DNA from: a virus
Direction: 5' to 3' (one strand)
IMG/VR virus record: IMGVR_UViG_3300020205_002550
Coordinates: 1 to 20,731 of that record
Length of the DNA: 20,731 bases
Under the pieces are notes generated by a model. The model was not told where the DNA came from, did no database searches, and saw only the letters and a program-made list of their open reading frames with translations. Numbering within the stretch: position 1 is the stretch's first letter; every line of letters starts with the position of its first letter. A program made the position numbers and the translations under genes. Below are positions 3,021 through 13,456 of the stretch, piece by piece.

Positions 3021-3093
3021 TGCCCCATAGCTCAGTTGGTAGAGCACCGCACTGTTAATGCGGGTGTCCCTGGATCGAGGCCAGGTGGGGCAG
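3021..3093 (+). tRNA. tRNA-Asn (GTT)
   Basis: Full cloverleaf: acceptor TGCCCCA/TGGGGCA with seven Watson-Crick pairs, D-arm GCTC/GAGC, anticodon arm CCGCA-CTGTTAA-TGCGG, T-arm CCTGG-ATCGAGG-CCAGG, discriminator G as usual for tRNA-Asn. The CCA end is not encoded. The T-loop begins ATC rather than the usual TTC. It starts six bases after the subtilase stop and is probably cotranscribed with it. Confidence 0.95.
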
Positions 3094-3107
3094 CAAATTA
3101 AATAAAG

Positions 3108-9723: not shown

Positions 9724-10140
9724 ATGGTAACACAGTTCGCTATGGATCTATTCAATGATCCTTTTTTTATTGGCTTTAACAGAGAGTTAAGCCGTCTTAA
9801 TACCGCACATAAAACAAATTCACAATCATATCCACCTTACGATCTTCTTAAACTAGATGAAGATACATATAGGATTTCATTAGCTATCGCTGGATTTTCC
9901 AGGGAAGACATTGATGTCTCAGTAGATAATGGAACTCTTATTATTAAGGGTGAGATTGTAGAAGTAACAGATGCTGAAGTAGTTCACAAGGGTATCGCTG
10001 GTCGTAAATTTGTACGATCATTTGCTCTTGGAGAATATATGGAAGTAACTGGGGCTGAAATGAAGGATGGTATGCTACATATTAATGTAGATCGTATTGT
10101 TCCTGAAGATAAAAAGCCTAAGACCATCACTATCAACTAA
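9724..10140 (+). CDS. Small heat shock protein (Hsp20, IbpA-like)
   Basis: A 138-residue ATP-independent holdase chaperone. It opens with FAMDLFNDPFFIGFNREL, has the alpha-crystallin domain at about residues 37-130 (YPPYDLLKLDEDTYRISLAI, GTLIIKGE, GIAGRKFVRSFAL, MKDGMLHINVDR) and ends with VPEDKKPKTITIN, including the I-x-I motif that docks between subunits. The likeness to IbpA/IbpB is strong. The gene stands alone between a terminator-promoter and the pstS regulatory region. Phage copies may protect proteins during takeover or assembly. Confidence 0.92.
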   Translation: MVTQFAMDLFNDPFFIGFNRELSRLNTAHKTNSQSYPPYDLLKLDEDTYRISLAIAGFSREDIDVSVDNGTLIIKGEIVEVTDAEVVHKGIAGRKFVRSFALGEYMEVTGAEMKDGMLHINVDRIVPEDKKPKTITIN

Positions 10141-10189: not shown

Positions 10190-10221
10190 ATACACCTGAG
10201 CATGTGTTTAAAAGGCTCATT

Positions 10222-10254
10222 GTTCACCCAAAGTTATGATTGCGTTAACCAATT
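10222..10254 (+). promoter_or_regulatory. Pho-box-like direct repeats upstream of pstS
   Basis: Three units at exact 11-base spacing: GTTCACCCAAA (10222), GTTATGATTGC (10233), GTTAACCAATT (10244). The first matches the actinobacterial PhoP direct-repeat unit (GTTCACC-type, 11-nt period) closely, the third well and the second weakly. The array ends about 28 bases before the -10 at 10282, a position suited to activation. Together with pstS downstream this suggests control by the host phosphate-starvation regulator. Confidence 0.65.
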
Positions 10255-10281
10255 TTATTAAGAATGTAGACTTGAACACGA

Positions 10282-10287
10282 TACAAT
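10282..10287 (+). promoter_or_regulatory. -10 element of pstS
   Basis: TACAAT six bases before the ATG at 10294, predicting a leaderless transcript. The -35 position (10259-10264, TAAGAA) is poor, as expected for a promoter that needs an activator. An overlapping TATAAT at 10287 is too close to the ATG to serve it. Confidence 0.5.
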
Positions 10288-10293
10288 ATAATT

Positions 10294-11340
10294 ATGAAAT
10301 CTAAATTCATTGTTTTACCCATAGCGTTGGCGATAATATCCAATGCTTTTTTTATTACTAATTCACATGCTGATAACCTACAAGGTGCTGGATCCACATT
10401 TGCTGCTAATTTTATAGACAGATGCAGGGTTGAATTTATGAAATCAACAGGAGATTCTGTTGTGTACGGAGCATCTGGCTCAGGTGCTGGAAAGAATATG
10501 TTTTCAAATGGAGTAACGGACTTTGCTATGTCAGATGTCCCTTATTCTGGATCAGAATTAAAACCATCAAAAGAATTTACATATGTTCCATTAGTAGCAG
10601 GACCAATTGGAATTATATATAAACTTGATGGATACAAGATTACTCTTAAGATGAGCAGAGACACTCTGGCCAAAGTTTTTGCGGGACAAATAACAATGTG
10701 GAATGATCCACAAATACTAAAAGAAAATATGATAGGTGCAAGAGTACCTAGGATTCCAGCAACAAAGATCAGAGTAGTATACCGTATTGATGGCTCAGGA
10801 ACTTCAGAAGTCTTTACTTCATACCTAAATGCAATAGCCCCAACTATCTGGAACAAGCCAGGTAATAAGAGTTTTAATAATGCATTCCCTGGAGATATAG
10901 CAAAAGTATATATGACTAGCGCTTCTGGATCACACGGAATTGCTATGGTACAAGGAACTACAAATGGGTCTATTGGATATAATGAAATATCGTACGCAAG
11001 AGGACTTAAGACAGTATCTGTTGAGAATGAGGCTGGAAGGTTTATGCAGCCAACTATTTCAGCAGCATCAATGTTCCTTGGAGATTTTGTACCAGATAAA
11101 AGTGGGGTAGTTAAAATAAACTATAAAAACCCTAACAAACTATCTTATAATATATCTACTTTTACCTATGGTATAGCCTATAAAGAAAAGAACTCAAAAA
11201 ACGATTCAGTTAAAAATTTCTTCAACTTTATGCTTGATACCTGTGGCAAGAAGGCAGAAGATTTAGGCTATTCTCCAATTAAAGGGGCTATGCTCAAGTT
11301 TTCAAAAGCAAGAGTAGCAGAAATAAGTTCAAAACCGTAG
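10294..11340 (+). CDS. pstS: Phosphate-binding protein PstS
   Basis: A 348-residue periplasmic-type phosphate-binding protein of the ABC uptake system. The signal peptide ends at about SHA-DN (residue 26). There is no lipobox Cys, unlike most actinobacterial PstS lipoproteins. PstS motifs follow: LQGAGSTFAANFI, YGASGSGAGKNMFSNGVTDFAMSD (the phosphate-binding Ser-Gly and Asp region, residues about 55-78), AGPIGIIYKL, VVYRIDGSGTSEVFTSYL and NGSIGYNEISYA. Marine cyanophages carry pstS as a host-derived gene that aids phosphate uptake during infection. Here the same logic appears in a likely actinophage, supported by the Pho-box-like repeats upstream. No pstCAB is present. Confidence 0.93.
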   Translation: MKSKFIVLPIALAIISNAFFITNSHADNLQGAGSTFAANFIDRCRVEFMKSTGDSVVYGASGSGAGKNMFSNGVTDFAMSDVPYSGSELKPSKEFTYVPLVAGPIGIIYKLDGYKITLKMSRDTLAKVFAGQITMWNDPQILKENMIGARVPRIPATKIRVVYRIDGSGTSEVFTSYLNAIAPTIWNKPGNKSFNNAFPGDIAKVYMTSASGSHGIAMVQGTTNGSIGYNEISYARGLKTVSVENEAGRFMQPTISAASMFLGDFVPDKSGVVKINYKNPNKLSYNISTFTYGIAYKEKNSKNDSVKNFFNFMLDTCGKKAEDLGYSPIKGAMLKFSKARVAEISSKP

Positions 11341-11480
11341 TATAATAGTTAACATTCCGCTAATAAGACCTTAAGAAAGTTTTGGCAACGGATGCTCCCC
11401 TTGACGGGAGAGTTAGCAGGAGTTGAATCTTCGTGGCTAATAGACCTGAGCAGTCGTCTATAAACTGCTTTCTTATTATG
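11341..11480 (+). ncRNA. Candidate structured RNA between pstS and the head-type gene
   Basis: TATAAT at 11341-11346 directly after the pstS stop predicts a start near 11353. The following ~125 bases are closed by TAATAAGA (11361-11368) with TCTTATTA (11471-11478). Inside are CTCCC/GGGAG (11395-11410) and AGCAGT/ACTGCT (11449-11469), the latter followed by TTCTT. Two near-copies, GCTAATAAGACCTTAAG (11359) and GCTAATAGACCTGAG (11436), lie within it. The segment ends where the next promoter begins. No known RNA family is recognised. The -35 is weak, so expression is uncertain. Confidence 0.35.
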
Positions 11481-13222: not shown

Positions 13223-13229
13223 AGCTTAG

Positions 13230-13300
13230 AGCGAGTGACCAGAATCGAACTGGCACTACCAACTTGGAAGGATGGTGCACTACCATTATGCAACACTCGC
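13230..13300 (-). tRNA. tRNA-Gly (TCC)
   Basis: Acceptor GCGAGTG/CACTCGC, D-arm GCATAATGGTAGTGC, anticodon loop CTTCCAA (anticodon TCC), T-arm CCAG-TTCGATT-CTGG core, discriminator T, no encoded CCA. The anticodon stem CCATC/GTTGG has one T-T mismatch, which may point to relaxed selection or a modified tRNA. Confidence 0.88.
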
Positions 13301-13304
13301 TTAG

Positions 13305-13378
13305 TACACCAGATAGGACTTGAACCTATGATAGCCGAATTATGAGTTCGGTGCCTTAACCAACTTGGCTACTGGTGC
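13305..13378 (-). tRNA. tRNA with CAT anticodon (elongator Met or Ile2)
   Basis: Acceptor GCACCAG/CTGGTGT, D-arm GCCAAGTTGGTTAAGGC, anticodon arm CCGAA-CTCATAA-TTCGG, T-arm ATAGG-TTCAAGT-CCTAT, discriminator A. The first acceptor pair is G-T. Initiator features (C1-A72 mismatch and three GC pairs below the loop) are absent. Whether C34 is changed to lysidine, making it an AUA-reading Ile tRNA, cannot be told from sequence. An AT-rich phage would benefit from that. Confidence 0.9.
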
Positions 13379-13383
13379 TTATG

Positions 13384-13456
13384 TCCCCTTGGCAGGAATC
13401 GAACCTGCGACACATGGCTTAGAAGTCCATTGTTCTATCCACTGAACTACAAAGGG
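13384..13456 (-). tRNA. tRNA-Arg (TCT)
   Basis: Acceptor CCCTTTG/CAAGGGG, D-arm GTTC-AGTGGATA-GAAC, anticodon loop CTTCTAA (TCT), T-arm GCAGG-TTCGATT-CCTGC, discriminator A, no CCA encoded. It reads AGA/AGG, codons that AT-rich phage genes use often; AGA is frequent in this window. The last pair of the anticodon stem is A-G. Confidence 0.92.

Follow-up and report, generated by a model that had tools for sequence, protein, structure and literature searches.

Does the pstS gene of this phage answer to the phosphate switch of its host? In the window, by which we mean the whole 20,731-nt stretch analyzed, pstS is preceded by repeats with an 11-base period, which the original prediction took for a host-type Pho box. 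On comparative evidence, we put at roughly 0.83 the probability that these repeats form an operator through which a host regulator of the RegX3/PhoP type would activate the phage gene under phosphate starvation. Feature coordinates are collected in Table 1.

Table 1. Features of the phage pstS locus, in window coordinates
Feature	Coordinates	Strand	Basis or remark
hsp20, upstream gene, place not conserved	9724..10140	+	PF00011, PHROG 432; upstream context varies in relatives
H-type RNA pseudoknot downstream of hsp20, separated from the Pho box by 3 nt	10192..10218	+	Covariation
Predicted Pho box, three 11-nt direct-repeat units: GTTCACCCAAA (10222-10232), GTTATGATTGC (10233-10243), GTTAACCAATT (10244-10254)	10222..10254	+	Top match of host-trained matrix; kept in relatives
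-10 box TACAAT	10282..10287	+	TAnnnT at +60, as in host pstS promoters and main-clade phages
pstS, phosphate-binding protein of ABC transporter, 348 aa	10294..11340	+	PF12849 (E 1.9e-42); PHROG 5385; PDB PstS
Type I signal peptide, ending ...TNSHA/DN, no lipobox	10294..10371	+	Sequence; same type in related phages and host PstS

Promoter geometry upstream of pstS

The claimed repeats do lie in front of pstS, and their register is exactly 11 bases throughout the three units. The actinobacterial PHO unit, as described for Streptomyces PhoP, is GTTCACCnnnn, 11 nt long (PMC4415409; PMC6754071); its GTTCACC core is matched at 7/7 positions by unit 1 and 6/7 by unit 3, and at only 3/7 by unit 2. The TACAAT -10 box begins 60 nt downstream of the start of unit 1, across a 27-base gap from the end of the Pho box, and ends 6 bases before the pstS ATG, so that the predicted transcript is leaderless. 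The promoter had been described as having a poor -35, and we agree: the best candidates are TAAGAA (17-base spacer) and TTAAGA (18-base spacer), and no -35 better than 4/6 exists in the window's pstS promoter.

The likeness of the three units to one another is not significant alone, since their self-similarity score of 14 is equalled at 1,204 of 20,699 window positions, and we dropped it as a significance test. That such self-similarity is common in the window would suit a chance repeat standing before an ordinary phage promoter, a reading we consider scarcely credible; it is already contradicted by the rank of the site under a host-derived matrix and by its conservation in relatives, and it is from these two, rather than from unit self-similarity, that the Pho box draws its significance.

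Search with a host-trained weight matrix

We trained the matrix on 49 bacterial pstB-pstS intergenic regions, all taken from an actinobacterial order with small genomes, excluding phage sequences and limiting the EM motif search to the intergenic part; without that limit, the C-terminus of pstB came out instead. The motif found de novo, CCAaTTGTTCACcTAA...GTT, reached a log-likelihood of 691, versus 107-129 on shuffles. A matrix scan had been suggested as a check on the original prediction, and with this matrix the site at 10216-10246 ranks first in the window at 17.5 bits (second-best site, 6.6 bits; maximum over 60 shuffled windows, 16.1 bits). On a Markov background the matrix gave 2 such sites in 6 million positions, or about 0.014 expected per window by chance. 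Among related phages we scanned 74 loci; the site upstream of pstS was likewise the top match in 54 of them and fell behind another site in the other 20. No further Pho boxes were found in the sampled phage stretches, where the other sites above 5 bits lacked a -10 at +60 and were mostly intragenic.

The closest bacterial PstS found, 36% identical to the phage protein, is that of L079, a MAG of a freshwater actinobacterium whose order is probably Ca. Nanopelagicales; PstS is present in 115 of 121 genomes of that order (1.0-2.2 Mb). In the complete genomes, a histidine kinase and a RegX3-like regulator (best PDB match RegX3 2oqr, E 1.3e-98) are divergent from phoU-pstC-pstA-pstB-[box]-pstS, and the host matrix finds a second bacterial site before phoU. 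In 86% of the bacterial pstS promoters, TAnnnT starts at exactly +60, counted from the first repeat; the use of a bacteria-only matrix and the identical spacing to the -10 thus back the description of the phage box as host-type. The layout of the repeats differs, the bacterial units being strongest at 0, 22 and 44 and the phage units lying at 0, 11 and 22. Taken together, the 11-nt units, the GTTCACC core, the fixed -10 spacing and the cognate regulator in the presumed host order support assigning the predicted box to the actinobacterial PHO boxes. The PstS phylogeny and the box match suggest small freshwater actinobacteria as hosts. A WhiB gene was rejected as host evidence, being not discriminating, and a DNA search of the window against named phages returned short nuclease-gene matches only.

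Might another host regulator of the OmpR family, an MtrA-like one for example, bind these repeats, so that pstS would answer a non-phosphate signal? There are 4-5 OmpR-type regulators per host genome, members of the family bind similar tandem sites, and PolR of Microlunatus binds GTTCACnnnnnGTTCAC (PMC6754071). We nevertheless judge this unlikely: the clear bacterial boxes precede pstS and phoU, adjoining the RegX3-like regulator, and an IUPAC pattern with the correct gap matches in the bacteria before these same two genes, its remaining matches being low-scoring, mostly intragenic and of the kind expected by chance.

Conservation of the box among related phages

The original prediction was to be given up if close relatives had lost the repeats. 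We collected 77 IMG/VR loci coding for the same PstS (48-94% identity) and compared their 42 distinct upstream regions. Such loss did not occur: right before the promoter we again find [GA]TTCAYCTAAA-RTTAATTCTTA-GTTWACC or one of its variants, and the repeats stay even where the upstream gene differs, the sequence farther upstream varying among hsp20 ends, other gene ends and different structured intergenic RNAs. Repeats and spacing are retained where the phage PstS proteins are ~70-94% identical; within the main clade, the TT of every unit never varies, and each of the 31 distinct promoters has TAnnnT at +60. The Pho-box columns average 1.29 bits versus 0.62 for the following 22 columns, and the phage profile repeats at lag 11. 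In a more distant clade (L067/L068/L070/L071/L074, 50-55% identity), exactly 11 bases, equal to one repeat unit, are missing between the box and the -10. L050 and L072/L073 are degenerate, with a leader that carries a ribosome-binding site and mainly GTTAACC kept; the Pho box of L050 is weak.

These data also bear on whether the box could be a functionless relic that was brought in with a host-derived pstS. The phage PstS groups with actinobacterial PstS, and gene and promoter may therefore have arrived together. Yet phage and host PstS share no more than about 36% identity while the box letters and exact spacing have been kept, conservation in the box columns is double that of the neighbouring spacer, and the promoter indel was exactly 11 nt; we regard a relic as very improbable.

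The phage PstS and its origin

The phage pstS is intact and under purifying selection, with dN/dS of 0.05-0.14 against ten relatives. Its product scores 195.5 bits against TIGR00975, under the 205 cut-off of that model, and carries the phosphate-binding motifs listed in PMC10987575 (T, GSGxG and RxxxSGT), in the window as GSGAG and RIDGSGT, with a core that is invariant in relatives. The lipobox Cys of Gram-positive lipoprotein PstS was looked for in the phage PstS and is absent, as had been noted from the sequence; the cleavage site is SHA/DN. This absence is normal, because the bacterial PstS of the presumed host order also have a signal-peptidase-I type leader, nearly all AxA, without a lipobox, making it a trait common to phage and bacteria.

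A common origin with the cyanophage PstS lineage was tested and not found. In the tree, the phage PstS groups with the PstS of this actinobacterial order (97/91 versus other actinobacteria and proteobacteria), and phage and cyanophage PstS fall on opposite sides of a 100/100 branch; cyanophage PstS are at most 35% identical to that of the window. The two phage genes are thus of separate origin, and the tree bears out the original claim of evolution separate from cyanophage pstS.

RNA elements around pstS

The pseudoknot after hsp20 has the form S1(4 bp)-CTGAGYA-N-S1'-NNAAAC-TGCTC and is found just past stop codons. A second window copy follows pstS (11442-11470), and more copies occur in L314, L338, L357 and L366. 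When 18 copies are compared, pairing holds in 97.5% of cells and 17 double changes are seen (0/500 shuffles). A scan of the virus collection that did not require S1 pairing matched at least 120 stretches, of which 80 were examined; among the matches listed for these 80, S1 pairs in 83 of 99 copies (chance about 5%), most often located 5-9 nt past a gene end. Comparison with Rfam gave no match. The element looks new and is possibly a 3'-end or termination element, the copy at 10192-10218 being likely the 3' end of the upstream transcript.

A putative small RNA of ~115 nt lies after pstS (11341-11471), with its own TATAAT at 11341-11346 and the pseudoknot at its end; a near-identical element is found upstream of pstS in L007, L008, L028, L030, L039 and L053. 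The window also carries a tRNA cluster (Gly-TCC, Met-CAT and Arg-TCT, 13229-13456) and a separate tRNA-Asn (3021-3094).

Proposed mechanism and comparison with known systems

In a phosphate-poor infected cell, the phosphorylated host RegX3/PhoP-type regulator would bind the 11-nt repeats head-to-tail and recruit host RNA polymerase to a promoter that has a good -10 but lacks a -35, so that pstS is switched on as a leaderless mRNA. Exported by its type I signal peptide, the phage PstS would then supply the host PstCAB permease, so that phosphate uptake might be maintained while host expression declines. Four elements of this scheme are inferred: binding by the regulator, dependence on phosphate, cooperation with host PstCAB, and which bacteria serve as host.

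It seems likely that phages of streamlined freshwater actinobacteria placed pstS under the host RegX3/PhoP switch independently of cyanophages, reproducing the host promoter geometry to the base. If so, phages would have captured the Pho switch repeatedly, as an outcome to be expected wherever there is little phosphate, pointing to convergent evolution of phage Pho control; and host-Pho control of phage genes, known from marine cyanophages, would also hold for phages whose probable hosts form one of the most abundant groups of bacteria in fresh water. The promoter model, exact to the base (box at 0, -10 at +60), is testable on cultured Nanopelagicales phage-host pairs and can be used to scan viromes sampled along phosphate gradients.

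As an auxiliary gene pstS was already known, from nine freshwater phage sequences among others (PMC10987575); the report of the first cultured Nanopelagicales phages makes no mention of phosphate genes (PMC10202952), and in the open-access papers searched we found no earlier report of pstS with Nanopelagicales viruses or of Pho-controlled pstS in actinophages. Pho control of pstS in marine cyanophages, to which the original prediction had appealed, is confirmed by the activation of cyanophage pstS by host PhoBR (PMC10976474); the same study found that predicted phage Pho boxes are not always bound and that prediction is unreliable without gel shifts.

Like the marine T4-like cyanophages (P-SSM2 and others), the phage has an auxiliary pstS behind a Pho box of its host's own type, and, as in cyanophages Syn19 and P-RSM1 (there in the order hsp20, small gene, pstS), an hsp20 lies near pstS, although the PstS lineages differ. 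It departs from the cyanophages in host phylum, in PstS lineage and in the letters of the box, the cyanobacterial box being PyTTAAPyPyT/A. With the actinobacterial PHO box (Streptomyces PhoP, mycobacterial RegX3), it has in common direct repeats of 11 nt that lie upstream of pstS and are built on a GTTCACC core; unlike that box, it is located on a phage, is A+T-rich and has three adjacent units, whereas in the promoters of bacteria of this order the best units are 22 nt apart.
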